Below are positions 5,350 through 40,797 of a stretch of 64,000 bases of DNA, one piece after another (within the stretch, counting starts at the first letter, position 1; each line of letters begins with the position of its first letter). This stretch comes from Lusitaniella coriacea LEGE 07157 (GTDB taxonomy: Bacteria > Cyanobacteriota > Cyanobacteriia > Cyanobacteriales > Spirulinaceae). Position numbers and translations under genes: made by a program. The notes under the pieces are model-generated. The model worked only from the letters and a program-made list of their open reading frames with translations. It was not told the origin of the DNA and searched no databases. The stretch spans positions 124,001 through 188,000 of the forward strand of contig NZ_JADEWZ010000001.1 in assembly GCF_015207425.1 (NCBI RefSeq), given 5' to 3'.

Positions 5350-6600
5350 ATGTCACTGGTGAGCTTACCGGGTTTAAAAGAGATGATCGACGAAATAAGT
5401 AGGGGTCACAACCTACCGAAATCTGCGGTTCAAGAAGCGCTGCGAGAAGCGCTGATCAAAGGATACGAGCGCTATCGTCGCTCCCAGCAAATGAACAATC
5501 GTCAGCCCTTTAGCGACGACTATTTTGAAAACTTTGAGGTCGAACTCGATACCGAAGAAGAAGGATTCCGCATTCTCTCGAAAAAATTGATCGTAGAGGA
5601 AATTGCCAACACCGACCATCACATTGCCCTCAAAGAAGTTCAGGAAGTTACCTCCGAAGCGCAAGTCGGCGACTCGGTGGTTCTTGATGTCACTCCAGAT
5701 CAAAAAGAATTCGGACGCATGGCAGCAATTCAAACCAAACAAGTTTTGCTGCAAAAACTACGAGATCAACAGCGCAAAATCATTCAAGAAGAATTTCAAG
5801 ACCTCGAAGGCACGGTTTTGCAAGCGCGGGTGCTGCGTTTCGAGCGACAATCGATCATCATGGCAGTCACAAGCGGCTACGGACAGCCAGAAGTAGAGGC
5901 AGAATTGCCCAAGCGGGAACAACTGCCCAACGATAACTATCGCGCCAACGCTACCTTTAGGGTTTTTCTCAAAAAAGTGCGAGACGGTTCTAATCGAGGT
6001 CCCCAACTGATTGTTTCCCGTGCGGCTGCGGGTTTGGTGGTCTATTTGTTCGCCAATGAAGTTCCCGAAATTGAAGATGAAGTCGTGCGGATTGTTGCGG
6101 TTGCTCGCGAAGCCAATCCCCCTTCTCGCTACGTGGGTCCTCGCACGAAAATTGCGGTCGATACCCTTGAGAGAGATGTAGACCCCGTGGGTGCTTGTAT
6201 CGGAGCCAGGGGATCGCGCATTCAAGCAGTGGTCAACGAACTGCGAGGGGAAAAAATCGATGCCATTCGCTGGTCTCCCGACCCCGCAACCTATATTGCC
6301 AATGCCCTTTCTCCCGCTCAAGTCGAACAAACCCTTTTAATCAATCCCGAAGAGCGGCAAGCCCTGGTTTTAGTGGCAGAAAATCAACTGAGTTTGGCGA
6401 TTGGGAAAGAAGGGCAAAATGTTCGTCTTGCGGCTCGTTTAACGGGATGGAAAATTGATATTAAAGATGCAGCAAAGTATAATCCGCAAACTGAGGAACA
6501 AAAGCCCGAGGAAGTTCCTCTGGGGGAAGTCGATTTGGTCTTAGAGGAGGAACAAAAAGGGGACGAAGAGATTAAACTAGAAACAAGGGAAGAAGAGTAA
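5350..6600 (+). CDS. nusA: Transcription termination/antitermination protein NusA
   Basis: 416 residues. The ATG at 5350 is chosen because AGGAGG ends 7 bp before it; the TTG at 5344 would sit on top of that site. NusA binds RNA polymerase and nascent RNA, promoting pausing and Rho/intrinsic termination or antitermination. Domains in order: N-terminal polymerase-binding domain (about 1-125), S1 domain (about 130-205), and KH1-KH2 (about 225-350) with GARGSRIQAVVNELRGEKID and AIGKEGQNVRLAARLTGWKID. The protein then ends in an acidic tail rich in Glu; the E. coli-type C-terminal repeats are absent, as is usual in cyanobacteria. The gap to rimP is about 100 bp, so a second promoter is possible. 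Confidence 0.96.
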   Translation: MSLVSLPGLKEMIDEISRGHNLPKSAVQEALREALIKGYERYRRSQQMNNRQPFSDDYFENFEVELDTEEEGFRILSKKLIVEEIANTDHHIALKEVQEVTSEAQVGDSVVLDVTPDQKEFGRMAAIQTKQVLLQKLRDQQRKIIQEEFQDLEGTVLQARVLRFERQSIIMAVTSGYGQPEVEAELPKREQLPNDNYRANATFRVFLKKVRDGSNRGPQLIVSRAAAGLVVYLFANEVPEIEDEVVRIVAVAREANPPSRYVGPRTKIAVDTLERDVDPVGACIGARGSRIQAVVNELRGEKIDAIRWSPDPATYIANALSPAQVEQTLLINPEERQALVLVAENQLSLAIGKEGQNVRLAARLTGWKIDIKDAAKYNPQTEEQKPEEVPLGEVDLVLEEEQKGDEEIKLETREEE

Positions 6601-7085: not shown

Positions 7086-10000
7086 ATGAACAACGGAAAA
7101 ACTAGAATTTACGAATTATCAAAGGAATTGAATCGAGATAACAAGGATATTTTGGAAATCTGCGAGCGGCTCAACATTGCCGTCAAAAGTCATAGCAGTA
7201 CGATCACCGACGCTCAAGTCGAACGGATTCGAGCAGAAGCCAAGCGTTACCCAGCGAGCAAAAATCATGGCTCTTCGAGCGCGGCAACTGAAGAAAAAAA
7301 ACCCTCTTCGGTGAAGGCAAAGCGACCTTCAGGCTCTCGCAAGCCTCAAATCCGAGAAATTCTCAAATCCAACGACCCGCGTTCTTCAAGGGATTCCCAA
7401 ACCGGAGGGAAGGCAACAACATTGGCAACTCCCCCTCGTCCGCCCGTCAAACCCCAAATCGTTTCTCCCTCCGCCGCCAGCAACCCGCCTGAAGTCGATC
7501 AACCCTCAGACAACTCTGAATCTAGCTCAGAAACAAACTTGACTCAAATTAGCAAAACTCAACCTCAAACATTGGTCACCGAGCGAGAGGAAGTCGATTC
7601 CCCTCAACTCCTTTCTCCTCCCCCAAGACCCTCTAAGGGGAAACCTCCGCTTTCTCGAGAAGACCGACCCACCATCAAAAAACCCAAGAAAAAATCTCAA
7701 ATCACCGCTTCTGACAAAGGTGAAGCGAGCAGTGAGGTAGTGGGGACTCCCTCCGGTTTAACAACCAACAAACCACAACCGCCCAGGAAACCGATCCTGT
7801 CCCCACCGCCAAGACCCAATAATGCCGGCAAACCAGCAGTAGCAGACTCCTCTGACCTAGAACAAGAAGACGGCGCTAGTGAAGAAAATGGCACCATCGA
7901 GTTAGCGGAAAAACCCAAACTCAAGCGACCTACTCCGCCTCGCCAAAGCAAGCGGAAAGATTGGGAAGAGGAAGAAGAGGAAGACAAAGACATCAAGGGC
8001 AAATCCGGTAAGGTCAGCAAAGTCTCTAAATCCGGAAGTAAGACCAAACGTCGCTCTCAGCAAGTCGTATTTGAAGATGATGACTTTGATAGCGAGTCGA
8101 GCGATCGGACTGCATCGCCGACAGCCGCAAGTTTATCCGTGGCTCGACCGCCCAAACCCCCCTCTCTCTCGCGCGCGACAGCGCCATCCGGGAGCAGTCC
8201 GAGTAAAGTAAAAAGACCTACTCCGAAAGGAGAAGGCAGTTCGGGACGGAACGATCGTCAAGACAGACGGCGCGGGGAGAAAAAGCCCGTTGCGCCCAAC
8301 GTTCCAGAACTGATTGAGCTTCCTGAAAGCTTGACGCTGCGGGAATTAGCAGAGTTGCTCAATACCCCAGAAACAGAAATCATTACGAAACTGTTTATCA
8401 AAGGAATCGCGGTTAACATCACCCAAACCATCGACCGCAACACAGCAAAAGTCGTTGCAGAAGAATTGGGAGTAGCCGTTGAAATTCCCGAAACAAAATC
8501 GGCAGCGACGAAAACCACAGAAATGCTGGATGAAGCAGACTTAGAAAGCCTGCAACGCCGTCCTCCCGTTGTTACGATCATGGGACACGTCGATCACGGT
8601 AAAACGACCCTGCTCGACTCCATTCGCAAAACCAAAGTGGCTCAAGGAGAAGCCGGAGGCATCACCCAACATATTGGGGCGTACCATGTGGATGTGGAAC
8701 ACAACGGTAAAGACGAGCAGATTGTTTTCCTCGACACTCCCGGTCACGAAGCTTTCACCGCTATGCGAGCCAGGGGAACGCGAGTCACGGATATTGCAAT
8801 TTTGGTAGTGGCAGCAGATGATGGCGTTCAGCCGCAAACCAAAGAAGCCATCAGTCACGCCAAAGCGGCTGGCGTGCCGATTGTCGTTGCGATCAACAAA
8901 ATTGATAAAGCCGAAGCAGAACCCGATCGCATTAAGCAAGAATTAACCGAACAGGAGTTAATCTCTGAAGAATGGGGGGGCGACACAATTATGGTTCCCG
9001 TCAGTGCGATTAACGGAGAAAACCTCGACTCTCTTTTGGAGATGATTCTGCTGGTTGCAGAAGTGGAACAACTTGAAGCCAATCCCAATCGCCTTGCCAA
9101 AGGAACCGTGATCGAGGCGAATTTGGATAAGGCAAAAGGGCCGGTGGCGACGCTTCTGGTTCAAAATGGAACGTTGCGCGTCGGCGATAGTATTGTTGCG
9201 GGATCTGCTTTTGGTAAGATCCGGGCAATGATTGGCGATCGCGGCGATCGCGTAGAAGTGGCAAGCCCCTCTTTTGCCGTTGAAATTTTGGGCTTAAACG
9301 ATATTCCCGGCGCGGGAGACGAGTTCGAGGTCTTTGATAGCGAAAAAGTGGCCCGCACAACCGCAGACAAACGGGCGGCAACACAACGGGAAAGCCGCTT
9401 GCAGCGCGCGATGACCTCTCGCCGCGTAACCTTGAGCAGCTTGTCTGCCCAAGCCCAGGAAGGAGAACTCAAAGAACTCAATTTGGTGATCAAAACGGAC
9501 GTACAAGGATCTCTCGAAGCCATCCTTTCCTCGCTCCAACAACTGCCCCAAAATGAAGTGCAGATTCGCATTATCTACGCTTCTCCAGGCGAAGTCACAG
9601 AAACGGATGTGGATCTCGCCGCCGCGAGTGGCGCGATCGTTGTCGGCTTTAATACCGCCCTCGCCAGTGGCGCTCGTCAAGCAGCCGATCGCGAAGGGGT
9701 TGATATTAACGAATACACGATCATCTACAACCTCCTAGATGAAATCCAGGCGGCAATGGAAGGTCTGCTCGAACCCGAACAGGTGGAAGAACCATTGGGA
9801 ACGGTGGAAGTTCGCGCGGTATTCCCCGTTGGGAAAGGATCGGTTGCAGGCTGCTATGTGCTTTCTGGAAAAGTCGTGCGCAACAAGCGCATGCGCGTGC
9901 GCCGCGGCAAGGAAATTGTCTACGAGGGAACCGTTGATTCTCTCAAGCGGATGAAAGAGAACGAACAGGAGGTGAAAACGGGCTTTGAATGCGGTATTGG

Positions 10001-12249: not shown

Positions 12250-12611
12250 ATTGATTTGGGGAGACGGGTATTGCAGGAGTATTGACCCTCTCAAGAAAGT
12301 ATAAGTTTCTTGATATCGCGCCAATTTCGATCGGCATTTTGTCCAACGTTCCACTTATATCGCAAGTTAGAGAGCTAACCCAGAAAGTAGTCTGGTTTCC
12401 TTCAGTCGATAGATGTTTCACCCCCCTCTACTTTGCCCTAATGAAAAAGAAGAAGCCAGCAGGGAGGAATACAACCAGAGGGACTTTTAAATCAATATAG
12501 GCTCCCTCCTTCTTCCGCAGTTGGGAGAGGTCAGAATGCCTTCAAGGAGATGGTGCAAAACCCCTTCCCTAGAAAATATTACAAGTTCTTTGGGATTGGA
12601 CAAAATGCCAT
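12250..12611. other. Non-coding stretch between two minus-strand genes
   Basis: About 360 bp with no frame of coding character. It presumably holds the promoter of the pentapeptide gene and the 3' region of the YdcF-like gene. I see no clear terminator, repeat or RNA structure. Confidence 0.5.
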
Positions 12612-13403
12612 TCACAGCCATCCACGCTGGCGATAAACGACTAACCCGATATATTCTTTAATTGCCTTTGTCGTTCGTTCCAAGCGGTCGATTTCCGGTA
12701 GGAGATTGAGCAGTGTGCCTTGGGGAGTTGTACTGGGTTCTCCAATCAGTTGCTGGGTAACGAGAAAATCTGTGGGTGCGGGGATGGCATCGATCCCTTG
12801 GCGTTTGAAGATGAGAAAGGATCGCGGCATATGAATGGCAGAGGTGACGAGTAGAATTCGTTTGAAGTTACGCTCCTTCAAAATTTTCCCGACATTTACG
12901 GCGTTTTCGTAGGTGTTGAGGGAGTCGGGTTCTTGAATAATGGCAGAAGCAGGAACGCCAATATCCGTGAGAAAGATTTCTGTATCAGAAGCTTCGGAGG
13001 GCCCGCCCCCGCGCCATTGTACGCGCCCCCCAGAGGCGATAATGTAGGGGGCTTTTTTTTGTCGATAGAGGTGCGCGGCATAGAGCGCGCGATCGCCTTG
13101 CTCGCTGACTTCTACGGTTTGGCGGGGTGCTGAGATGGGTCTGAGAGAGCCGCCAAGGAGGACAATAGCATCTGCTTGGGGGAGTTCTCCTTGGGGAAGG
13201 TGTTTCCATTCAAGGGAGCGCACGAGGGTATTGCTAACCCAACCATTGCTGGCAACGAGGAGAATCATTAAGGCAAAGGCGACGGGAAATGCGGTCCAAC
13301 GGGGTTTAAACCACAGCAAAACGAGAGAAAGCAAAAGTAGGATGCAACTCAATCCTAGGGGATATAAAAAGAGGGGGAGGAGTTTGGAGAGAAAGAGAAA
13401 CAC
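12612..13403 (-). CDS. YdcF/ElyC family protein (DUF218)
   Basis: 263 residues from a GTG at 13401-13403. Two N-terminal membrane segments (about 1-32 and 35-58) are followed by the DUF218 domain: ADAIVLLGGS, RALYAAHLYRQKKAPYIIASGG, EASDTEIFLTDIGVP, SLNTYENAVNVG, ILLVTSAIHMPRS. This two-helix plus DUF218 layout is that of ElyC-type envelope proteins linked to lipid-carrier and peptidoglycan homeostasis in enterobacteria; the biochemical reaction is not established. It stands as a single gene with a divergent gap of about 200 bp to the next gene upstream. Confidence 0.85.
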   Translation of the reverse strand: MFLFLSKLLPLFLYPLGLSCILLLLSLVLLWFKPRWTAFPVAFALMILLVASNGWVSNTLVRSLEWKHLPQGELPQADAIVLLGGSLRPISAPRQTVEVSEQGDRALYAAHLYRQKKAPYIIASGGRVQWRGGGPSEASDTEIFLTDIGVPASAIIQEPDSLNTYENAVNVGKILKERNFKRILLVTSAIHMPRSFLIFKRQGIDAIPAPTDFLVTQQLIGEPSTTPQGTLLNLLPEIDRLERTTKAIKEYIGLVVYRQRGWL

Positions 13404-27525: not shown

Positions 27526-28278
27526 ATGCAAGCAACAGCCGAGCAGTTGTCGCACCTTTCGATTTTTACCGTGCTTCACACCGAAGCATTATCCCTGTTA
27601 GCGCGACAGACTCAGATTAAAGGTTTTCAGCGAGGGGAAATTGTATTCAACGAAGGCGATTATCTCCCGCCGAAACTCTATGCAGTTTTAACCGGAGAGA
27701 TTCAGATTCAAAAAGTGTCTGTATCGGGGAAAGAAACCGTGTTACGTTGGCTTCCTCCTGGAGAACTGTTTGCAGCACCCGCTCTCTTTGGGGATGGGAT
27801 TGCGCCTGCAACCGCGATCGCGCTACAAGATTGTGAAGTCGTCACCCTAGAAAAATCTGCATTGTTAGAGGCGATTCAGTCAACCCCAGAAATTGCCTTA
27901 CAAATTTTGCAGTGTTTTAACCAGCGCTTGCAAGAAATGCACCAAACCATTCACGGACTCGTTTCCGAGCGAGCGATTGTCCGCCTTGCTCGCACCCTAC
28001 AATACACCGCCCAACGATACGGTACAAAAAAAACGAAGCAAGGCGTTTGCTTAACCGTAAAGCTCCCTTATCAGCAACTCGCGCGCAGGATTGGAATTAC
28101 CTATGAGGAGTGCGTTCGTTTGACGAACAAGGATCTACGCGCGATCGTTTCCTATCAACGAGGCGGTATAATTGCCATTCTGGATGCGTCTGCCTTGGAC
28201 GCGATCTCACAGAGATCTGCCGAAGGGCAGTGCGCGTCCGAATCTTCTACAGCGATGCCCTCTCTACCAAAGCTTTAG
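27526..28278 (+). CDS. Crp/Fnr family transcriptional regulator
   Basis: 250 residues. A cyclic-nucleotide-binding-type beta barrel (about 10-125: IFTVLHTEALSLLARQTQIKGFQRGEIVFNEGD) leads through a dimerisation helix (about 125-155) to a winged helix-turn-helix (LPYQQLARRIGITYEECVRLTNKDLRAIVSYQRGGI, about 185-225). The cNMP phosphate-binding loop residues are not the classical RAA pattern and there is no N-terminal Fe-S cysteine set, so the ligand is uncertain. It converges on, and overlaps by 32 bp, a globin gene, which suggests a role in NO or oxygen response; this is inference from neighbourhood. Confidence 0.9.
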   Translation: MQATAEQLSHLSIFTVLHTEALSLLARQTQIKGFQRGEIVFNEGDYLPPKLYAVLTGEIQIQKVSVSGKETVLRWLPPGELFAAPALFGDGIAPATAIALQDCEVVTLEKSALLEAIQSTPEIALQILQCFNQRLQEMHQTIHGLVSERAIVRLARTLQYTAQRYGTKKTKQGVCLTVKLPYQQLARRIGITYEECVRLTNKDLRAIVSYQRGGIIAILDASALDAISQRSAEGQCASESSTAMPSLPKL

Positions 28279-28702
28279 GCTGTAACAGCTCTGGTGGATA
28301 CTCGCTCCCCTCCAACATAATTTGAGCAATGATTGAATAGGCATTCGCCCAAGCCCATTCCACCTCAGAAGTCCAGTCTTCCTGCAAAATATTGGCGAAG
28401 GCTTGAAGCAGAGTAGCGCCAACTGCCGGATAGTGGGCTGGCACAGCACCGTATTGAACGTGGCGAGTTCCCAAACCCTTCAACGGTTCCATTAAGGCTT
28501 CTGGATTCCGCAAACCCCTAACCACAAGCGCCAGAGAGTCAAATAGTTTCTTGGATTGATCGTCCATCGACACATGGGCAAACAATGGCTTAACGTCAGG
28601 GTAATCTTTAAACAGAATGGCGTAAAAACAATCGGTAAAGTCTGTTTGGCGCTCTTTGATACGAGCAAAGCTCGCTTCTAGCAGTTCTACTTGCAAAGCC
28701 AT
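28247..28702 (-). CDS. Single-domain globin
   Basis: 151 residues. Classical globin fold: SFARIKERQTDFTDCFYAILFKDYPDVKPLF (helices A-B and the CD Phe), LALVVRGLRNPEALMEPLKGLGTRHVQYGAVPAHYPAVGATLL with the proximal His in the GTRHVQYG segment (about residue 95), and WTSEVEWAWANAYSIIAQIM for the last helix. It resembles the haem domain of flavohaemoglobins (Vitreoscilla-type) without the reductase part. Such proteins bind O2 or NO. Its 3' end overlaps the convergent Crp/Fnr gene. Confidence 0.92.
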   Translation of the reverse strand: MALQVELLEASFARIKERQTDFTDCFYAILFKDYPDVKPLFAHVSMDDQSKKLFDSLALVVRGLRNPEALMEPLKGLGTRHVQYGAVPAHYPAVGATLLQAFANILQEDWTSEVEWAWANAYSIIAQIMLEGSEYPPELLQPKALVERASL

Positions 28703-28838: not shown

Positions 28839-28917
28839 TTAGGTAATCTGTCGTGCAACAACAAGATAGCGGAAAAGATATTCGGCAATTTCGAGATAGT
28901 TCTGTGCGACTGTGGGA
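28839..28917 (-). pseudogene. Duplicated 3' end of mtnB (direct repeat, left copy)
   Basis: 28843-28917 matches 33016-33090 at 74 of 75 positions (difference at 28878 versus 33051). Read on the minus strand it encodes the last ~26 codons of mtnB. Beyond the shared block the copy still has a synonymous Thr codon and a stop (TAA here, TAG at the intact gene), so the reading frame end is kept while bases differ. It lies exactly on the far side of the 4.2-kb insertion, as an attachment-site duplicate or a scar of recombination would. Confidence 0.9.
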
Positions 28918-28952
28918 AATATCGAGACGTTATCTGCAGCAATACAAGTTTC

Positions 28953-29149
28953 TATAGCAGTCCTCAATGATTTGTAATATTTTTGATCTTAGAAGCCTTG
29001 ATGTATAAGGATTTTGTATTTTCACTTTTCTGTATAGCGGTATGTAGTTGGGTGAAGCACCCTAGCATAGCTGTAATACCCTTAACGAAAGAATTTATCT
29101 GTATCTCACTTCAAACGAACACCGCCATAACTGAAATAGGACTGCTATA
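28953..29149. mobile_element. IS630-type MITE (197 bp)
   Basis: TATAGCAGTCCT (28953-28964) and AGGACTGCTATA (29138-29149) are perfect 12-bp terminal inverted repeats. If TA is the target duplication, the repeats proper are TAGCAGTCCT, the pattern expected of IS630/Tc1-mariner elements. The interior is AT-rich and encodes nothing. It lies between the mtnB fragment and the 1260-residue gene. Confidence 0.75.
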
Positions 29150-29204
29150 TGTGTAGTAATAATACTGAAGAACTATTTTTTCCTGATTCAGAGAAGATAT
29201 ACTT

Positions 29205-32200
29205 ATGATTCCTCCCAATTGGATTGATGCAACCGATCTAAATTCATGGGCGAACAGAAGAGATGCTCAAGGAAAACTACCACAGTTGCTACGTCGTTTG
29301 ATTCATGCGACTGTCCCACGACTTCAAAGAATTAGATTTCCAGCAGGGGAGAGTGTCCAAATGGGAGGCTGGGATGGAATTATAGAAACATCCGAAGGTA
29401 ACGCTTTTGTTCCTGATGGTTGTTCAGTCTGGGAATTAGGAGTAAACAGAAAGGTTAAAGGAAAAGCAGACGATGATTATCAAAAACGTTGTGCTGATTC
29501 TTTGGGATTGACCTCTTCTGAGACTACATTTGTTTTTGTAACTCCACGGCGCTGGGGAGGCAAAGATGATTGGATCAGAGCAAAGAATTCTGAAGGAATT
29601 TGGGCTGAGGTAATAGCATACGATGCAGATGACATAGAACAGTGGCTAGAACTCGCCCCAGCAGTTCATATCTGGTTAGCTCTATTGCTCGGAAAGTGGT
29701 CAGAGAATGATCAAGATATCGGTAGCTTTTGGGATGAATGGGTTAACGTAACTACACCATGCCTAACCTCTACATTGCATTTAGCTGGTAGAGAACAAAA
29801 TGTGGAAAAAGTGAAAAACTGGCTGAATGAACCGCCTTCAAAACTGACTATTCAGGCAAATTCTATTGAAGAAGCGATCGCGTTTTTTACGGCAATAATC
29901 TACGATCTGCCAGAGGATGAGCGAGTTCAATTCCTTTCTCGATGTGTTCTGGTGAAAAATGAGTCTTCATGGAGATATTTTGCTAGTTCTCAAGATTCAC
30001 TAATTTTGATACCTACATTCGAGCGACTTAAATCAATCCCCCAGGAACATCATGTTCTAGTTTCTGTTGGAAGAGAGATTAGTCCATCCAAAGACACCTT
30101 ACAGCTTTCAAGGCTATCTAGAGAAGGTTTTAGAAAAGCTCTGGCGAGCATGGGCTTCTCCTTGGAACGGGCTGATGCTTTATCCCAGGAATCTAAGAGA
30201 AGTTTGCTGGTACTACGTCGTTTGCTTGCATCTAATCCTGAAATACATACCCCTGATTGGGCGAAGCCTGAAAATGCGCGATCGCTTATCCCGGTATTGC
30301 TAGCTGGCGCATGGGATGAAACTAGAGAAGCTGACAAAGAAGCAATTGCTGCACTTGCTCGTAAAACTTATCAAGAAGTCATCAATGATATTTTACGTTG
30401 GCTAAACACTTCCGATCCACCCATTCGTAAGTTGGGGAATGTGTGGCAGCTAGTTTCTCGTGAAGTTACATGGCATTTTATCTCTCACTCTCTAGTTCGA
30501 GATGACTTTGAGATTCTTGAGACAACTGTATTGTCAGTTTTAGGAACACTCGATCCAAAGTATGAATTACCTATCGATCAGCAATTTGCTGCCAGTGTAT
30601 ATGGGAAAAACCTCCCTCATTCAAATTTTCTGCGAGAAGGATTAGCAGAGACTCTTGCGATCCTAGCAACGAGAGGAATACCGTCAGAAATTCAGGATAT
30701 AACAACAGCGCAAAGTAAAGTCAATGTAATTATTCGCAAGTTGCTAAATACTGACTCTGATTGGCAACAATGGGCTTCTCTTTCATACCTTCTACCTACG
30801 CTGGCTGAAGCTGCCCCCGAAGTATTTTTAGAAGTAGTAGAGCAAGAGCTTCAAAGTGATTTTCCTACTTTACTGGGTTTATTCCAAGAAAGTAGATGGG
30901 CATTGGGAGGTAGCCCCCATACAGGACTACTTTGGGCGCTTGAAACATTTGCTTGGAAACCCATCTATCTCTCACGAGTGACTTTGATTCTAGCAAAGCT
31001 ATCCAGGCTCGACCCTGGTGGTCATTTAGTCAATCGTCCGTTCAACAGTTTATGCGAAATATTTTTTTGCTGGAAACCTCAAACATCTGCTCCCCTCCAG
31101 CAAAGATTACGAGTCATTGATACTTTGTTGATTCGTGAGCCAGAAGTTGCATGGAATTTACTATGTAATCTGCTACCAAAAATTACTGGCGAACTCTCAC
31201 ATCCAATCTACAAACCTCGCTGGCGAGAATGGTTGATTGAATCTAGATCAAAAGTTACTTGTACAGAATATTGGCAGAATATTGAAGCTTTAATTCAACG
31301 GATTTTGACTCATGTAGGAAGCAATAGTAATAGATTATGTGATGTGATCGAACGGATAGAGTCTCTTCAGCCGAGCCTGCGAGATCGAGTTATTGATTTT
31401 ATTGCTTCAATTGACACTGCTAATATCCCAGATAGAGATATTGTAAAAGCTTGGGGTAGCCTTAGAAAAATCATCCAAAAACACAAAAAATACTCCAACG
31501 CCAAATGGGCAATGCAAACAGAGGTCATTGAACAGCTTGAATCTATTTATGAAAATTTGGAGCCTCATAGTCTAATTTTTAAATATGCTTGGTTATTCTC
31601 TGTTAATCCTCCTCTTTCAGACAGCACTGGTTTTGACTGGAAAACTAGGGACAAGAAAATAAAACAAGTTAGACATGAAGCTGTTAAAGAAATTTATTTT
31701 AAACTTGGTATCTCTGCTTTATTAGATCTGGCAATTCATGTTAAAGAACCAGGTCTACTCGGCGCTTCCATTGGTTGGCTCGAAGCGATAGACAAAGATG
31801 AAATACAGCTACTCAATAACTCATTGGGGCAACACAGCAAAGTATTACATGACTTTGGAATTGAATTTATTCGTGGTCGTTTAGGAGTTTCAGGATGGAG
31901 TTGGGCAGAAAAAGTCATATCTCTTGCAAAATCTGGAAATTGGCCGAAGAAACAGTTACTCAATTTCTTTCATGGTTTACCCTTTGAACAGGGTAGTTGG
32001 GATTTACTGTCTCTATTTGATGAGAAGTTCAAAACAACTTACTGGCAGACAATTTCAGCAATTGGGGTCAAATTAGATGATTGTAAAACAGCAGTGTGTA
32101 GATTGCTTAGTGTCAATCGTCCCTATGCTGCTTTAAATCTGGCTGCTTTGTATTTGAATAATCAATCTGGAGTTGTTTCTATACAGCCCAGAATCCTGGT

Positions 32201-32987
32201 AGAAATTCTTGAAAAAGCAGCTCTTATCGATCCACTGACAGAAATACCAACACCAGGTACACAACTACTTGACCACTATATCGAACAAATATTTTATGCT
32301 TTGGACGCTTCAGAATCAGTTGAAGAAAATGAGATTGCTAGACTGGAGTTGATTTATTTTTACTGGCTTCGTAATAGCAAGCGACAACCGAAGTTGCTCC
32401 ATCAAGAATTAGCTAGTAATCCGTTATTTTTTGCTGAAATTGTAAAGCTTGTATATAAATCAGAGGATAATCAAGAAGAATCAGTGAAATTCGATGAAGC
32501 AACGGTAGAAAGAGCTAGAATGAACTACGAGTTGCTTGAATCACTATATCAAGTACCTGGTCTTACTGAAGACGGGAATATTGACTCCACAAAACTCAGA
32601 GATTGGGTTCTAAAGGCACGAGAGGCTTGTCAGGAAAGTGGGAGAGGCGCAATTGGAGATCATCATATTGGCGAGCTTTTAGCATATGCACCAAAAGCAT
32701 CGGATGGACTCTGGCCTGATATAGCAGTCAGAGAGATTATTGAGGAGATTGCAAGTCGAGATATTGAACTAGGAATAGAAACTGGTGTTTATAATCTCCG
32801 GGGAGTTTGGAGTAAATCAATTGGTGAAGGAGGTATCCAAGAAAGACAACTGGCTGAAACTTACCGAGACTATGCTGATGCTATCGTAGATACTTATCCT
32901 CAAACTGCTTCAATGCTGTACAGAATAGCGAACGATTATGACTCTGTTGCTCATGGAGAGGATATTCAAGCAGAACTTAGAGATTAA
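29205..32987 (+). CDS. 1260-residue protein with nuclease-like N-terminus, possible defence gene
   Basis: ATG at 29205. Residues 1-155 look like a PD-(D/E)XK-type domain: GGWDG (Asp57), a strand with VWELG (Glu77), then KADDDYQKR (Lys87, Tyr92) and a core strand VFVTPRRW. Residues about 190-360 have the secondary-structure rhythm of a STAND/AAA-type core (REQNVEKVKNWL; SLILIPTFE as a Walker-B-like strand; HHVLVSVGRE), but no GxxxxGK[ST] loop is present, so nucleotide binding is doubtful. The remaining ~900 residues are helical repeats. No signal peptide. The DNA is AT-richer and poorer in HIP1 than its surroundings, and the gene sits inside a duplication of mtnB's end. Nuclease-plus-repeat architecture in an insertion suggests anti-phage defence; this is inference. 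Confidence 0.75.
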   Translation: MIPPNWIDATDLNSWANRRDAQGKLPQLLRRLIHATVPRLQRIRFPAGESVQMGGWDGIIETSEGNAFVPDGCSVWELGVNRKVKGKADDDYQKRCADSLGLTSSETTFVFVTPRRWGGKDDWIRAKNSEGIWAEVIAYDADDIEQWLELAPAVHIWLALLLGKWSENDQDIGSFWDEWVNVTTPCLTSTLHLAGREQNVEKVKNWLNEPPSKLTIQANSIEEAIAFFTAIIYDLPEDERVQFLSRCVLVKNESSWRYFASSQDSLILIPTFERLKSIPQEHHVLVSVGREISPSKDTLQLSRLSREGFRKALASMGFSLERADALSQESKRSLLVLRRLLASNPEIHTPDWAKPENARSLIPVLLAGAWDETREADKEAIAALARKTYQEVINDILRWLNTSDPPIRKLGNVWQLVSREVTWHFISHSLVRDDFEILETTVLSVLGTLDPKYELPIDQQFAASVYGKNLPHSNFLREGLAETLAILATRGIPSEIQDITTAQSKVNVIIRKLLNTDSDWQQWASLSYLLPTLAEAAPEVFLEVVEQELQSDFPTLLGLFQESRWALGGSPHTGLLWALETFAWKPIYLSRVTLILAKLSRLDPGGHLVNRPFNSLCEIFFCWKPQTSAPLQQRLRVIDTLLIREPEVAWNLLCNLLPKITGELSHPIYKPRWREWLIESRSKVTCTEYWQNIEALIQRILTHVGSNSNRLCDVIERIESLQPSLRDRVIDFIASIDTANIPDRDIVKAWGSLRKIIQKHKKYSNAKWAMQTEVIEQLESIYENLEPHSLIFKYAWLFSVNPPLSDSTGFDWKTRDKKIKQVRHEAVKEIYFKLGISALLDLAIHVKEPGLLGASIGWLEAIDKDEIQLLNNSLGQHSKVLHDFGIEFIRGRLGVSGWSWAEKVISLAKSGNWPKKQLLNFFHGLPFEQGSWDLLSLFDEKFKTTYWQTISAIGVKLDDCKTAVCRLLSVNRPYAALNLAALYLNNQSGVVSIQPRILVEILEKAALIDPLTEIPTPGTQLLDHYIEQIFYALDASESVEENEIARLELIYFYWLRNSKRQPKLLHQELASNPLFFAEIVKLVYKSEDNQEESVKFDEATVERARMNYELLESLYQVPGLTEDGNIDSTKLRDWVLKAREACQESGRGAIGDHHIGELLAYAPKASDGLWPDIAVREIIEEIASRDIELGIETGVYNLRGVWSKSIGEGGIQERQLAETYRDYADAIVDTYPQTASMLYRIANDYDSVAHGEDIQAELRD

Positions 32988-33011
32988 TGAGGCAACTGAG
33001 GCTTAGGTAAA

Positions 33012-33626
33012 CTAAGTAATCTGTCGTGCAACAACAAGATAGCGGAAAAGGTATTCGGCAATTTCGAGATAGTTCTGTGCGACTGTGGGAGAAGAACCCC
33101 ATACGGTAACGCCGTGGTTGCGGATGAGTAATGCCGGAATATCGGGAGGTGCGGCTTGAAAACGATCGCGCACTTCAGTCGCAATGTCCCGAACCGCTAG
33201 ATGGTTCTCGAATACAGGAATTTTTACTTCCGGGTTTTCTTGCCAAATTCCCAACCCTTTAATCATTTCCAAAGGCGGAAGAGGGAGGTATCCGTCGCGA
33301 CTAAAATTAGCAGCGATATTCGCCTCGACGGAGTGGACGTGATAGCACGCGCAAACATCGGGAAAAAGGTCGTAAATGGTTTGGTGGATGCTGGTTTCTG
33401 CCGAGGGACGGTTATTGGGGTTGGGGGATTCGATTACCGTACCATTGGGGTTAATCCGAACAAAATCGCGATCGCGCAAGTCTCCCTTTTGTTTCCCACT
33501 CGCCGTAATCCAAAAACTACTATCTTCCAAGCGCACCGATAAATTTCCCGCAGTTCCCACCATCCAACCCAGTTGATAAAATTGGCGCGCAGCAGCAATA
33601 ACAGCAGAACGAGGATCGGAAGTCAT
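33012..33626 (-). CDS. mtnB: Methylthioribulose-1-phosphate dehydratase
   Basis: 204 residues. Class II aldolase-like zinc enzyme of methionine salvage that dehydrates 5-methylthioribulose 1-phosphate. Seen: WMVGTAGNLSVRLEDSSFWITASGKQKGDL, SAETSIHQTIYDLFPDVCACYHVHSVEANIAA with the zinc His pair and catalytic Glu, and LLIRNHGVTVWGSSP with the third His. Transcribed with mtnX, which ends 26 bp upstream. Its stop codon lies at the boundary of the inserted 1260-residue gene; the last 75 bp or so are repeated at 28843-28917. Confidence 0.93.
   Translation of the reverse strand: MTSDPRSAVIAAARQFYQLGWMVGTAGNLSVRLEDSSFWITASGKQKGDLRDRDFVRINPNGTVIESPNPNNRPSAETSIHQTIYDLFPDVCACYHVHSVEANIAANFSRDGYLPLPPLEMIKGLGIWQENPEVKIPVFENHLAVRDIATEVRDRFQAAPPDIPALLIRNHGVTVWGSSPTVAQNYLEIAEYLFRYLVVARQIT
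33016..33090 (-). repeat. Direct repeat within mtnB 3' end (right copy)
   Basis: 75-bp block that is 74/75 identical to 28843-28917, in the same orientation. Start-to-start distance is 4173 bp. This copy belongs to the intact gene. Confidence 0.9.
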
Positions 33627-36650: not shown

Positions 36651-36722
36651 GCGGGTATAGTTCAGTGGTAGAACGTCAGCTTCCCAAGCTGAATGTCGTC
36701 GGTTCGAGTCCGATTACCCGCT
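36651..36722 (+). tRNA. tRNA-Gly(CCC)
   Basis: Full cloverleaf: acceptor arms GCGGGTA (36651-36657) and TACCCGC (36715-36721), discriminator T, D arm GTTC...GAAC, anticodon stem TCAGC/GCTGA around the loop TTCCCAA (anticodon CCC), and T arm GTCGG-TTCGAGT-CCGAT. No CCA is encoded. It is the anchor of the scarred integration region that follows. Confidence 0.95.
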
Positions 36723-36784
36723 TCTTAAAAGACGCACCGCACAAAGGTTTCAATAAGTATCCCCTTGTAATAGTGCCAATATTT

Positions 36785-36919
36785 TGAACCCGAAATGAGT
36801 CCGGTGGGAGTGCCTTAAACCCGCATGACTTCGTAGGGGGTGAACCCGAAATGAACCCGAAATTGACCCCTGATTTTGAACCCGAAATGACCCCGAAATC
36901 CTCAAAAATGAACCCGAAG
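36785..36919. repeat. Short direct repeats between tRNA-Gly and the recombinase
   Basis: TGAACCCGAA occurs at 36785, 36841, 36876 and 36909, with further near copies (ATGAACCCGAA at 36851, GACCCCGAA around 36890). The block lies between the tRNA 3' end and the recombinase stop, where arm-type integrase sites of an attP would be. The repetition is seen; the role is inference. Confidence 0.7.
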
Positions 36920-36920
36920 T

Positions 36921-37790
36921 CTATTCAGCCGGGGTCAATGAGGGCAAGCTACTTTCGCCTAAATAGTATTTCTCGATAATCTCGGTGGAGGTGTCGCACC
37001 ATTGAGCGACGATCGCGAGAGGAATGCCTTTGATAACCTGTTCGCTAATGAAGGTGTCGCGACAGTTGTAGGGAGTCGTGCCAGATTTGATGGGGTCAAC
37101 GATCGTATTCCAGGCGCGATTAGAGAAATTACCGTAGTTGATATCTTTGCCCCTTGGTGAGGGGAACACCCAATCAGAGGAAAGGGCATCAACGGGCTTT
37201 GTTTCCTCAAGCAGTGCCTTCAACTTGTCATTACAAGGAAATAGCCGCTTCTTGTTGTTTTTGCTGCCTGCGGTCTTAAATCGCTGGCTTCCATGTCGAT
37301 AAACGCTGCCATTGAAAACAATGGTTTCTTTGAGAATATCTCCCCAACTCAGCGCGATCGCTTCCCCCGGTCGGCAACCCGTGAGGAAAAGAAAACTAAC
37401 GAAAGGGTAGTAATAGCAGTAGGCGTGTCCCACAAAATTCTTGCCATTCCATCTCCCTCGATGTTCCTCAAAAGCTCGAAGCACCAACTCCTTCTCTTTG
37501 GTTGTAAAGGGATTTGGCTTCAATTCCTTTTCCCAATTGTGCTTGAATTCTTTCGCCATTTCCGCCCAAGGATTGGGGGGAATGACCTTGTTGTGGAGCA
37601 GCGCCCACTTGAATGCCGCGTTAATCTGCTGTAGGACGCGCTTGGTCATTGATTCGGTCGTGTTTTCAAAAGCCATTGCCGCATCTCTAGGCTGCTGTAA
37701 GGGGAGCCAATGCCCGCTCTCTCAATCAGGGGGGAGACTGAAGTCCTCATGTAGTGAATAGTGGTGGGCTTGAGAATCGCCGATTTGTAC
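36921..37790 (-). pseudogene. Tyrosine recombinase/integrase, frameshifted and N-terminally truncated
   Basis: The C-terminal 251 residues are open from 37676: TGCRPGEAIALSWGDI supplies the first catalytic Arg, KTAGSKNNKKR the Lys, YNCRDTFIS the second Arg, and EIIEKYYLG the Tyr; the usual box II His is not visible. Upstream, a shifted frame reads SAILKPTTIHYMRTSVSPL and LIERAGIGSPYSSLEMRQWL, an obvious SAM-like core-binding domain, and runs out at about 37645. The frameshift therefore lies between 37645 and 37675, near TTTTGAAAA. The arm-binding N-terminus is missing and the frame abuts a Cas12k fragment near 37790. Located next to tRNA-Gly, the usual target of such enzymes. Confidence 0.85.
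37134..37361. repeat. Direct repeat within recombinase (left copy)
   Basis: About 228 bp of the recombinase catalytic domain recur at 40570-40797 in the same orientation at roughly 93-95% identity with a single-base indel. The two copies bracket the Cas12k, integron-like and IS remnants. Confidence 0.9.
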
Positions 37791-37919
37791 TTGACAGAGT
37801 TGTTCGTCGCTTTTGAGCATTCCCAGCCAACGCACCTGTCCTTCGAGTTGGCGTTGTCGGCGTTGTTGGAGTTTGAGCCAAGATTTGTAGATGTATTCTA
37901 CAAGCGCGATCCTCGAATC
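37791..37919 (-). pseudogene. Cas12k fragment (type V-K CAST effector remnant)
   Basis: Translating the minus strand of this gap gives IALVEYIYKSWLKLQQRRQR followed by QLEGQVRWLGMLKSDEQL. From memory this matches the region around residues 90-130 of Cas12k proteins, where the Anabaena and Scytonema effectors read ALVDYVYKSW...RR..RQIEG..RWL..LKSD..L. Only about 40 codons survive, with no start, no catalytic region and no neighbouring tnsB, tnsC or tniQ. It is fused on one side to the broken IntI-type gene and on the other to the recombinase. Type V-K CASTs commonly insert next to tRNA genes, which fits the place. Confidence 0.8.
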
Positions 37920-37924
37920 AGCAG

Positions 37925-38391
37925 TTAATTTTGGGCAAAATCTACATCCTTAACTCGTAAACTCAACGCTTCCTCCAGCCTCAAACCACTACCATAGAGC
38001 AGTTGTACAACCAACAAATTAACGCCATTGAGATGTAGCATGACGGCGGACACTTCTTCTTTCGTTAAGACTGTCGGCAAACCCTTGGGACGCTTCGCTC
38101 GCATGAATGCAGAGATATTGCCTAACTCAACATGAAGAACCTCTCGATACAAAAATAGTAAAGCACTCAAGGCTTGGTTTTGAGTAGAAGCTGCAACTTG
38201 GCGATCGACGGCAAGATGGGTTAAGAAATCTTGAATTTCCTGCACTCCCATATCGCGTGGATGATTTTTGTTGTGGTAAAGCAGAATCGTTTAATCCAAT
38301 CGAGATAAGCTTGCTTGGTGCGGTAGGAATAATGCTTAAGGCGAAGGATCTCGCGAACCACATCCAGCAACTTTTTAGGGGGAGTAGTCAT
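37925..38391 (-). pseudogene. IntI-type integron integrase, frameshifted and truncated
   Basis: Starts with an ATG at 38389-38391: MTTPPKKLLDVVREILRLKH then [16 protein letters not shown], followed by a frameshift at about 38277-38295 into [20 protein letters not shown] and [20 protein letters not shown], then [14 protein letters not shown] and [22 protein letters not shown]. These segments track the N-terminal half of integron integrases such as IntI1 ([41 protein letters not shown]). A TAA then replaces the expected Gln codon (FAQN-stop), and the catalytic C-terminal half is gone, replaced by Cas12k sequence. It is divergent from the two genes at 38594 and 39104, the normal orientation of an integron integrase and its cassettes. 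Confidence 0.82.
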
Positions 38392-38417
38392 TGAGAAGCA
38401 AAAAATCCGGATATAAT
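38391..38417 (+). promoter_or_regulatory. Candidate promoter for the cassette-like genes
   Basis: TTGAGA (38391-38396) and TATAAT (38412-38417) are spaced by 15 bp, slightly short for a sigma-70 promoter. It starts at the IntI-type start codon and points to the SnoaL-like gene, where an integron cassette promoter would be. Confidence 0.35.
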
Positions 38418-38426
38418 ACTTATGGA

Positions 38427-38457
38427 GGTATTATACGGAAATTTCCTATATAATACC
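38427..38457. promoter_or_regulatory. Nested palindrome, operator-like
   Basis: GGTATTATA (38427-38435) pairs perfectly with TATAATACC (38449-38457), and the interior holds a second perfect palindrome GGAAATTTCC (38437-38446). ATAATAC at 38413-38419 adds a third half-site. Either an operator or a recombination site of the divergent IntI-type gene. Confidence 0.5.
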
Positions 38458-38593
38458 CTAAAAGAGGGATTAAACTGATTAAATTTAGGTAAAATGCCTG
38501 TAAGGGTGAATATCTTGAAAAAATCCGTCTAACTAAATATATAGTTATCCGACTGAGATCTCATTCTTTTACGCGTTGAACAGGGACGACAGA

Positions 38594-38959
38594 ATGACAC
38601 ACCCCCCCGACGAAACTATTCGGCATCTACGCGATGCCTACGCAGCTTTCAACAATCGCGATGCTGACGCCGTTCTGTCACTAATGACCTCGGACGTTGT
38701 ATGGCCTCGTGCGTTCAAGGGTGGCTTTGTCGAGGGACCGGACGCAATCCGGGCCTATTGGACGGAACAATGGGGCGAGATTGACGGGACCGTTGATCCC
38801 GTGTCGTTTGAAACCGACGAAACCGGACGGATTAACGTCACGGTTCATCAAGTCGTGCGAGACCTTGATGGCAACGTTCTAGCTGACAATCACGTTTGTC
38901 ATAGATTTACAATGGATCGCGACTTGATCGCGAAAATGGACCTCCCTGATGCACCATAG
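38594..38959 (+). CDS. SnoaL-like/NTF2-fold protein, cassette-like gene
   Basis: 121 residues from ATG 38594; the frame opens at a TTG 18 bp earlier, which coincides with the presumed cassette boundary. NTF2-like features: ETIRHLRDAYAAFNNRDADAVLSLMTSDVVWPRAFKGGFVEGPDAIRAYW, a polyketide-cyclase/isomerase-type helix-turn-strand pattern, followed by beta strands INVTVHQVVRDLDG and NHVCHRFTM. The fold often binds small hydrophobic ligands; function here is unknown. Base and codon use is GC-richer than the flanks and HIP1 is absent, which suggests transfer. It is followed by an attC-like inverted repeat. Confidence 0.82.
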   Translation: MTHPPDETIRHLRDAYAAFNNRDADAVLSLMTSDVVWPRAFKGGFVEGPDAIRAYWTEQWGEIDGTVDPVSFETDETGRINVTVHQVVRDLDGNVLADNHVCHRFTMDRDLIAKMDLPDAP

Positions 38960-38976
38960 CGTTGGTCCTTGGCGAA

Positions 38977-39080
38977 AACGCAACACGGCGGATACCATCG
39001 CATGCACCGGAGCCGGGCTTGCGAACGTTTTCTGATGGTTGACTTTACTCTCCCAGCCCGGTGATGCGGGACGTTATGCG
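38977..39080 (+). repeat. attC-like recombination site
   Basis: Downstream of the SnoaL-like gene the DNA is partly self-complementary: CCGGGCT (39013-39019) with AGCCCGG (39055-39061), flanked by CATGCACCGG and CCGGTGATGC, and it ends in GACGTTATGCG, close to the integron core GTTRRRY. Comparable cores are GTTGAAC at 38575 and GTTAGGC at 39889. The similarity to a canonical attC is moderate. Confidence 0.5.
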
Positions 39081-39103
39081 TTTATAAACTAGAGGACTGC
39101 CAC

Positions 39104-39880
39104 TTGATTAGAAGCAACGCAACAACTGAAAGACTTTTCAGAACCGCAGGCCTCTCGGTAGGTATGTCTATTCTTGAATTGGGATGTGGCCCCGGTGAGG
39201 TCACAGAACTTCTCAGCGAACTAGTTGGTCCAGCCGGTCGTGTGCTAGCCGTTGATCGTAGCGATGAGATGCTAGCTCGCGCTGAAACTAACCTCAAGAA
39301 GGCTGGAAAGAAGAACGTTCGCTTTGTCCGTGCAGATTTGAGCAATGCGCCTGAGTACTTAAATAACGTGGACCACCCTTCGTTCGATGCTGTGGCTGGT
39401 CGTCGAGTTCTAATGTACCTGGCTAGTCCTGATCGAGTACTCGCAGGTCTACTGCCCTGGTTACGAGAAGGCGGTTTGGTTGTTTTTGAAGAGGCTGACT
39501 CTACTATCTGCCCAGGGCACGTCGCGGCCATGCCTGCTCATGAACGAGGCGCATTCTTACTCGGCAAGTTGCTTAGCGAAGAAGGCGTTGACCAGTCTAT
39601 GGGGTTCCATCTTCCTGCCACATTATCAAATGCAGGACTTCGATTCGAGCGAATTTGGGCCGAAGCCGTCATAGATGGGCAGGGTGACCAATACACCCTT
39701 GGCGAGCTATTGCAGTTGCTTAAGCCCCGTTTTGAATCATCAGATGTTGCGACCATTTCCGAGATTGAATCCCTGCTTCCGCAGATCGAAATGGAGAGAG
39801 AACCCATAAACGTCTTTGTGAGTGGAATGCGGTTCTGCGCCAAGGCGAGAAAGGTCAATGAGTCGGGCGCCGACGCATAA
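39104..39880 (+). CDS. Class I SAM-dependent methyltransferase, cassette-like gene
   Basis: 258 residues from a TTG at 39104, accepted because AGAGGA lies 7 bp upstream and no ATG is available before the first motif. Rossmann methyltransferase motifs: MSILELGCGPGEVTELLSEL (motif I), GRVLAVDRSDEMLARAE (acid of motif II), VRFVRADLSN (motif III) and FDAVAGRRVLMYLASPDRVL. Resembles ubiquinone/menaquinone-type or small-molecule methyltransferases. Substrate unknown. GC-richer and HIP1-free like the gene before it. It ends in sequence ATAACGTGGGCGTTAGGC, which contains a GTTRRRY integron core. Confidence 0.87.
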   Translation: MIRSNATTERLFRTAGLSVGMSILELGCGPGEVTELLSELVGPAGRVLAVDRSDEMLARAETNLKKAGKKNVRFVRADLSNAPEYLNNVDHPSFDAVAGRRVLMYLASPDRVLAGLLPWLREGGLVVFEEADSTICPGHVAAMPAHERGAFLLGKLLSEEGVDQSMGFHLPATLSNAGLRFERIWAEAVIDGQGDQYTLGELLQLLKPRFESSDVATISEIESLLPQIEMEREPINVFVSGMRFCAKARKVNESGADA

Positions 39881-39959
39881 CGTGGGCGTTAGGCTTCGCT
39901 TTAAATCAAATTCTTCAGGCTCCGAGTATGAGTAATTAGTCGTCCCTGAAAAACTGAAA

Positions 39960-40569
39960 TTAAGCAGGAGCCTCAGAGGAGAAAAAGAATCGGAAAAGTT
40001 TGCGTAAATTGAAACCACAACCCGCCAAAAGCGCATTAATACGGTCGCCCTGTTGACCCTTAAGGTAATTGCGCTTCAGACAATGGTCTTGCTTCGCATG
40101 ACCAATCACGGGTTCAATGGCACTACGACGTTTGATGAGTTTCTTTTGAGTTCCTTTGAACTTCCTTGTCCCCGCAACACAAACCTCCACATCATCAGGA
40201 TGATAAACTTGACCGCGAAAGCCCTTGTCAACAAACACTTGTTTGGGGTGAATCTCGCTGAGCTGCTCCACTTGAGACAGTGCGGGGATGAGTGTTGCTC
40301 CATCGTAGGGATTGCCATGCACCGCATCAATTCCTACAATCCAATTACTCTTGTTTGTGCTGACCATCACCACCTTACAACCAAACTCGTAGCGCTTGTG
40401 AGATTTTCCTTTGGCGATGCATTCCACTTCTGGAGCATGGACGCTGTAGACTTTGGGTGAATCCTGCCGTTTTTGCTGATGAATGCGCTGGCTTCTCTCG
40501 AGTAAATCTTTTATGGCTGCTGGGGGTGAAGGCAGTTTTCTCTTCAGTTCGCGAATCACTCTTCCCAAG
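39960..40569 (-). pseudogene. IS5-type transposase, C-terminal part only
   Basis: Reading from about 40569 to the stop at 39960: RVIRELKRKLPSPPAAIKDL, SVHAPEVECIAKGKSHKRYEFGCKV, GNPYDGATL, VFVDKGFRGQVYH (DDE Asp), and KRRSAIEPVIGHAKQDHCLKRNYLKG with the family Glu in the Y/R-x2-I-E-P-V-IGHAK motif. This is the second half of an IS5-group (IS1182/ISL2-like) DDE transposase. The first half is missing; the frame runs straight into duplicated recombinase sequence at 40570, which produces an accidental fused N-terminus. It is not expected to be active. Confidence 0.85.
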
Positions 40570-40797
40570 GTAGTTGATATCTTTGCCCCTTGGTGAGGGG
40601 AACACCCAATCAGAGGAAAGGGCATCAACGGGCTTTATTTCCTCAAGAAGTGCTTTCAATGTGTCATTACAAGGAAAGCAGTCGCTTCTTATTGTTTTTG
40701 CTGCCTGCGGTCTTAAATCGCTGGCTTCCATGTCGGTAAACGCTGCCGTTGAAAATAATGGTTTCTTTGAGAATATCTCCCCAACTCAGCACGATCT
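40570..40797 (-). pseudogene. Second partial copy of the recombinase
   Basis: Matches 37134-37361, covering the segment from TTGCCCCTTGGTGAGGGG to CTCCCCAACTCAGC. A one-base insertion near 40679-40682 shifts the frame relative to the first copy. It lies between the truncated transposase and the VOC gene and marks the right edge of the disturbed region. Confidence 0.88.

Follow-up and report, generated by a model that had tools for sequence, protein, structure and literature searches.

A probable insertion of a single foreign-looking gene beside a duplicated mtnB 3′ end in a cyanobacterial genome, and its possible origin by integrase-free capture

Introduction

Prophages and genomic islands that integrate at the 3′ ends of genes restore the end of the gene they enter, as e14 does in icd. 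Anti-phage proteins of the STAND/Avs-like kind are large, and their NTPase core carries Walker motifs. By what means single defence genes spread when no integrase or transposase is at hand is still debated in the field. Here we describe a locus of Lusitaniella coriacea LEGE 07157, lying in a window of 64,000 nucleotides (contig NZ_JADEWZ010000001.1, positions 124,001 to 188,000), in which a single foreign-looking gene stands between two copies of the 3′ end of mtnB. Like integration of the e14 type, the locus shows a substitute 3′ end and a direct repeat; unlike it, there is no integrase, element ends do not recur, and duplicated 5′ ends are found as well.

Closer counterparts come from integrase-free recombination. 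In a study of Escherichia coli conjugation with linear DNA homologous at one end, 56 of 60 clones had part of the anchor duplicated, over lengths of 109–950 bp (14 sequenced), and the authors read these as single crossovers of shortened circles (PMC3240628). The same study assigns 4 of the 60 clones to true homology-facilitated illegitimate recombination (HFIR), three of them without homology at the joint, and describes strict HFIR as usually producing deletions, not duplications, and usually using 3–10 bp of microhomology (PMC3240628). The insertion-duplication of a re-circularised fragment resembles our locus in that a partial duplication of the anchor end flanks foreign DNA and no integrase is involved, whereas the E. 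coli system is experimental and concerns lacZ with duplications of 109–950 bp, and the present cases are natural, span 55–167 bp, affect several genes and enclose defence-type cargo (PMC3240628). HFIR has also been proposed, in a Vibrio cholerae report, for the displacement of T6SS effector-immunity genes (PMC5361080). Displaced 3′ gene remnants, one homologous end and, in our proposal, one illegitimate end are common to both situations; the Vibrio anchor is itself part of the module family that is acquired (PMC5361080), whereas here unrelated housekeeping genes serve as anchors. Capture of this kind is known from the laboratory, and that it should recur within one genome around single genes of immune type seems less described; a narrow literature search found no report of gene-end scars around defence genes.

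Results and Discussion

A probable insertion at the mtnB 3′ end

The features of the locus, in window coordinates, are as follows.
28247–28702, minus strand: globin gene, which presumably followed mtnB as its native neighbour until the insertion; this adjacency is unmatched in the relatives' loci examined
28839–28917, minus strand: displaced mtnB 3′ end (left copy) with the native end ACC TAA, from repeat and alignment
28918–28952: left end of the foreign DNA, with no other copy in the 2.06 Mb scanned
28953–29149: MITE-like repeat with 12-nt terminal inverted repeats TATAGCAGTCCT, from repeat comparison
about 29029–29130: second MITE nested in the first, with 89–90% copies on contigs C9 and C34
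29205–32987, plus strand: cargo gene, an open reading frame of 1260 aa with 40% GC
32988–33011: 24-nt spacer from the cargo stop to the mtnB stop, the two genes being convergent
33012–33626, minus strand: intact mtnB (methylthioribulose-1-phosphate dehydratase, TIGR03328), whose last 78 nt (33013–33090) form the right copy and end in ACT TAG

The direct repeat (28840–28917 and 33013–33090) is 97% identical over 78 nt, and the 74 of 75 identities counted in the initial annotation between 28843–28917 and 33016–33090 were reproduced. A search of the whole 5.86-Mb genome gave two matches, the weaker with an E value of 1.2e-31, and no third copy; the repeat is therefore neither a chance match nor an interspersed repeat. 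The left copy consists of the last 78–79 nt of mtnB, encodes MtnB residues 179–204 and keeps its own in-frame stop. Together with the match of the right-hand gene to TIGR03328 (202 bits, cut-off 137 bits), the repeat alignment confirms the layout first suggested, with intact mtnB on the right and a displaced 3′ fragment on the left. Over the last 26 codons in frame the copies differ at three, all synonymously (TAT/TAC, ACC/ACT, TAA/TAG), among them the Thr codon and the changed stop that had already been pointed out. Since the last codons and the stop of the right copy differ from those of the left, the end of the intact gene would have arrived with the insert. The repeat itself is real and its edge is softer than had been claimed, as similarity continues in a gapped alignment for about 14 nt beyond the mtnB stop, with a 9-nt indel. 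Insertion at the mtnB end is very likely, and we propose that 28917/28918 is an illegitimate joint.

Between the mtnB copies lie one long open reading frame (29205–32987) and the two nested MITE-like repeats, the inner of which has copies on C9 and C34 that carry TATAGCGGT ends. Because this sole long frame does not encode a recombinase, the earlier statement that the insert holds no integrase stands. The GC content of the insert is 40.2% against a genome mean of 47.2% (SD 2.6; 297 blocks of 4.1 kb), a value as low being found in 5 of the 297 blocks, and its gene looks foreign.

For comparison we examined the mtnB loci of 12 relatives, the genus itself being represented by one genome in the sample. 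mtnX adjoins mtnB in nine of the 12 loci of at least 55% identity, which indicates that the mtnX-mtnB pair is old, and a globin gene stands beside mtnB in none of the 12. A cargo-profile search of the 388-genome order sample found no donor-type arrangement for mtnB.

Further along, window positions 36651–40796 contain a tRNA-Gly(ccc) gene, then an open reading frame at 36921–37676 and then a partial copy (94%) of the middle of that frame at 40570–40796. This stretch is a decayed element; its open reading frame, 3.8 kb from mtnB and beside the tRNA gene, is presumably tyrosine-recombinase-like.

A candidate defence protein family

Searches of Pfam, NCBIfam and PADLOC with the 1260-aa cargo protein gave nothing above cut-off, PDB sequences gave no match, and PADLOC models run against it and four relatives assigned no family. 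Counting its own genome, relatives occur in 7 of 386 genomes of a phylum sample and, by profile search, in 9 of 388 genomes of the order sample. Four loci of the family lie in genome contigs, those of Scytonema, Spirirestis and Plectonema (57–58%) and of Spirosoma (36%), and relatives are present in 22 plasmid records, 18 of them with at least 80% cover. Viral contigs yielded no relative of the cargo and no match to the core of the mtnB repeat.

In a structure model the C-terminal 921 residues form an all-helical solenoid (pLDDT 83, pTM 0.60) that matches only generic solenoids (TM at most 0.29). The N-terminal residues 1–420 are poorly modelled (pLDDT 44). A GWDG...WE...K pattern in the N-terminus is conserved across relatives, from which motif we presume that this part may be PD-(D/E)XK nuclease-like; distant relatives have a different N-terminus, which resembles the situation in modular immune proteins. 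The large size, the predicted helical solenoid C-terminus, the differing N-termini and the defence neighbourhood recall STAND/Avs-like proteins, whereas the cargo differs from them in having no sequence match in the libraries named above.

Neighbouring genes point in the same direction. The Spirosoma homologue (L044:9954–13937) adjoins the PRTase_III-A and RT_III-A of a type III-A retron; HmaC is among the neighbours of the Plectonema homologue, type I restriction genes are among those of the Acetobacter homologue, and a Rhizobium plasmid homologue is accompanied by an RT, a SLATT protein and a Shedu-like domain. As counter-examples, a HigBA-like pair is the sole defence-type neighbour of a Shewanella plasmid copy, and the Spirirestis copy stands alone between two genes (which we take to be sir and rsmE) with no defence neighbour. 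Judged by neighbourhood and predicted architecture, the cargo is most likely a defence (anti-phage) protein with a helical sensor region. The family, present in cyanobacteria, the Bacteroidota genome of Spirosoma and the 22 plasmid records and nameless in the libraries searched, is a candidate defence protein. A DUF3800-like gene also adjoins the Spirosoma homologue.

Twenty-four loci were scanned for repeats, of which 19 contain a cargo homologue; L098 and L099 hold a piece of about 60 residues only, and L042 and L087 appear identical in place. Gene scraps stand at the homologue in L041 (a modBC end), in L095 and L097, and in L102. Those in L095 and L097 are an internal gene piece and a gene end, which we take to be from plsY and a HicB-like gene, respectively; the plsY scraps were rejected as gene-end scars, being internal pieces and not ends. 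In L102 a duplicated small open reading frame (5891–6415 and 12603–13058, 82%) surrounds a distant homologue together with three other genes, and in L094 a repeat pair of 77% lies on both sides of the homologue. No scrap attributable to a gene end was found at the remaining homologue loci among the 19, which means that the cargo family does not always come with such scars. In the loci compared its members occupy unrelated sites without common ends, and most of these loci have no gene-end repeats.

Other gene-end duplications in the genome

We scanned 2,060,874 of the 5,864,958 bases of this genome for direct repeats of 35–600 nt with at least 80% identity, 400–20,000 bases apart. Of the resulting 154 pairs, 33 had at most three copies, and most of these were paralogous or internal repeats. 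Besides mtnB, three pairs duplicate the end of one gene around unrelated genes (two 3′ ends and one 5′ end), and their cargoes are not homologous:
G000:C6:164868–166160: 5′ end of a gene that we take to be mutL, 96% over 64 coding nt counted from the listed start and 37 nt upstream of it
C9, 40624–45490: 55 nt (93%) from the 3′ end of a HEAT-repeat gene that encodes 408 aa
C5, 46068–47290: 3′ end of a presumably CPBP-like gene, 110 alignment columns, 83%

The mutL scar encloses an 80-aa open reading frame and a PIN toxin (PF01850), the HEAT scar an ATPase (AAA_16 below cut-off), a TPR protein and a DUF5131 protein, and the CPBP scar a Uma2 gene (PF05685; PADLOC candidate PDC-S03). Toxin-antitoxin or defence-type cargo is present in four of four counted scars, a raw count from a small set. 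The 5′-end scar at mutL argues against an integrase specific for 3′ ends. At mtnB and HEAT, the two cleanest 3′ cases, no more than about 15 nt separate the stop codon from the outer end of the duplication. Among the relatives' loci returned, neither feoA beside mutL nor a squalene-hopene cyclase gene beside the HEAT gene was found, these names being in part our own assumption.

Two further pairs were not counted: in C7 107063/109145, around a PIN gene and one that is Abi-like, the repeat does not coincide with a gene end, and in C8 42782/48260, around an ATPase-TPR pair, the repeat lies inside a gene and not at the edge of the cargo. A two-gene layout of a P-loop ATPase gene and a TPR gene occurs twice (G000:C9:40758–44167 and G000:C8:43577–47282), the C9 copy being the one flanked by the HEAT-gene end.

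A broken fragment in Scytonema

In the Scytonema locus L041 the cargo homologue (58%) adjoins a copy of the modBC 3′ end that is 167 nt long and 96% identical. A sister species (G422) has the order NB-ARC/TPR gene (1341 aa), 167-aa gene, DUF393, modBC; for these loci we presume the names modBC (molybdate transporter), mop and DUF393. From the modBC-end copy to the intact modBC, the L041 segment is colinear with the sister locus in pieces of 96.5%, 93.0%, 94.3% and 94.0%. The NB-ARC gene is cut mid-frame in L041 and fused directly to the modBC-end copy, with no microhomology at the joint when the sequences are compared by eye. The match breaks off at the same base against G422 and against a second genome, G496, as the NB-ARC gene is unbroken in both. 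Since the colinear piece starts mid-gene and reaches into modBC, a broken fragment of the sister locus would have been added beside modBC, whose end was thereby duplicated. Such DNA, broken at one side and extending as far as its own anchor gene, is a fragment and not a defined element. We infer that entry of the NB-ARC fragment into a cargo-modBC locus fits equally well as, or better than, the reverse, in which cargo and modBC end entered an NB-ARC locus. The modBC copies have a single codon difference, which is synonymous, and five of their six differences lie outside the coding part.

A reading in which L041 consists of two cassettes flanked by att sites was given up, because G422 carries the NB-ARC/TPR gene natively at this locus and L041 has it in truncated form. 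The Scytonema homologue is flanked by inverted fragments of one transposase-like open reading frame, presumably ISAzo13-like (L041:5733–6023 and 9805–9907).

How the insertion may have arisen

The reading that we prefer, with a probability of roughly one half, is that a linear donor fragment ending in mtnB circularised and was integrated by one crossover, with no integrase. In the donor strain the cargo gene would have lain just downstream of mtnB, an arrangement whose counterpart for L041 exists in G422. A linear fragment, terminating on one side in about 80 nt of the mtnB 3′ end, would have been taken up by the cell, probably through natural transformation; joining of the fragment's two ends would have produced the joint at 28917/28918, and one homologous crossover within the shared mtnB end would have integrated it into the chromosome. 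The recipient's mtnB end would thereby be displaced to the left, and an intact mtnB with the donor's last codons would stand on the right. The same product could arise in one step by homologous recombination at the mtnB end and illegitimate recombination at the other. Perhaps only short repeats survive, longer ones looping out again. With this HFIR variant included, integrase-free capture is the explanation we favour, at slightly better than even odds.

Several observations count in favour of integrase-free capture: (i) Ku is absent from this genome (99.96% complete) and ComEC is present; (ii) the L041 fragment begins within the NB-ARC gene and ends in modBC; (iii) scars occur at both the 5′ and the 3′ ends of other genes; and (iv) the E. 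coli experiments yielded a product of this kind (PMC3240628). Moreover, all four codon differences between the mtnB and modBC copies are synonymous (3/3 and 1/1), and these copies differ at 7 of 82 non-coding positions against 4 of 180 coding positions (Fisher p 0.04), a pattern that fits donor and recipient alleles. Adding the HEAT duplicate to the test gives p 0.07, and its four codon differences, all nonsynonymous, resemble decay and speak against the two-allele reading. Also on the opposite side, neither an empty site nor a donor was found for mtnB itself in the relatives' loci compared, the outer ends at mtnB and HEAT lie closer to the stop than the model demands, homology of 55–110 nt is a poor substrate for RecA, and strict HFIR usually leads to deletions. 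A single crossover predicts a duplication instead of a deletion, at either gene end, with arbitrary joints and two alleles; duplications at both kinds of gene end are indeed found, an arbitrary joint is seen in L041 only, and two alleles are supported for mtnB and modBC and not for HEAT. Of the three origins first suggested, namely a mobilised satellite, a transposon-free recombination product and a decayed element, the second fits best. The accompanying idea of an element integrating site-specifically at a gene's 3′ end is not supported, given the missing integrase, the 5′ scar at mutL, the unshared ends and the mid-gene start in L041.

A satellite-like element that is mobilised by a tyrosine integrase in trans, enters at the mtnB 3′ end and brings a substitute end is in our view unlikely. 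The layout matches integration at a gene's 3′ end, the direct repeat restores the end of the target gene, two of the three duplicated 3′ ends terminate about 15 nt or less from the stop, and the presumed tyrosine-recombinase-like frame beside tRNA-Gly (36921–37676) is 3.8 kb away; however, the insert encodes no integrase, a 5′-end scar exists in the same genome, homologous cargo elsewhere mostly has neither common ends nor gene-end repeats, and the repeat core is missing from the viral contigs. tRNA-Gly was considered as a partner site for mtnB and rejected, as the two regions share no core (best local match about 20–29 nt, gapped).

We are similarly doubtful of a long target-site duplication, in which foreign DNA would have been trapped at a staggered double-strand break, with 55–110 nt on both sides copied by fill-in. 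Such a process accounts for duplicated 5′ and 3′ ends and for the missing integrase. Its copies would start identical and the freed one would drift randomly, whereas the mtnB and modBC differences are synonymous in codons and cluster outside coding sequence; Ku is absent, and the Scytonema insert is a fragment of the sister species' neighbouring locus and not random DNA.

Strict HFIR of a linear fragment, homologous at mtnB and illegitimate at the other end with no circle, appears improbable: it is documented in competent bacteria and was put forward to explain how gene ends came to be displaced at T6SS loci of Vibrio (PMC5361080), but deletions and 3–10 bp of microhomology are usual (PMC3240628), and duplications and a blunt joint are seen here. 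Transposition of the cargo by the nested MITEs or an unrecognised IS is very improbable, for although MITEs lie within the insert and inverted, presumably ISAzo13-like fragments flank the Scytonema homologue, the MITE ends lie inside the left arm and no terminal repeats enclose the cargo.

A wider proposal would be that cyanobacteria have a so far undescribed route by which single immune or toxin-antitoxin genes come to lie, time and again, at housekeeping-gene ends; the route would be integrase-free (a circularised fragment and one crossover) or, more boldly, would depend on an enzyme acting in trans with gene ends as its targets. We regard the proposal as speculative, with the odds against it. 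If true, gene-end scars would let the turnover of immune genes be read genome-wide. The duplications are a legible trace: they show polarity (native versus donor end), and their number could be compared between genomes. At mutL, where the 5′ duplication surrounds a PIN toxin-antitoxin pair, the mismatch-repair gene may have acquired a new upstream region.
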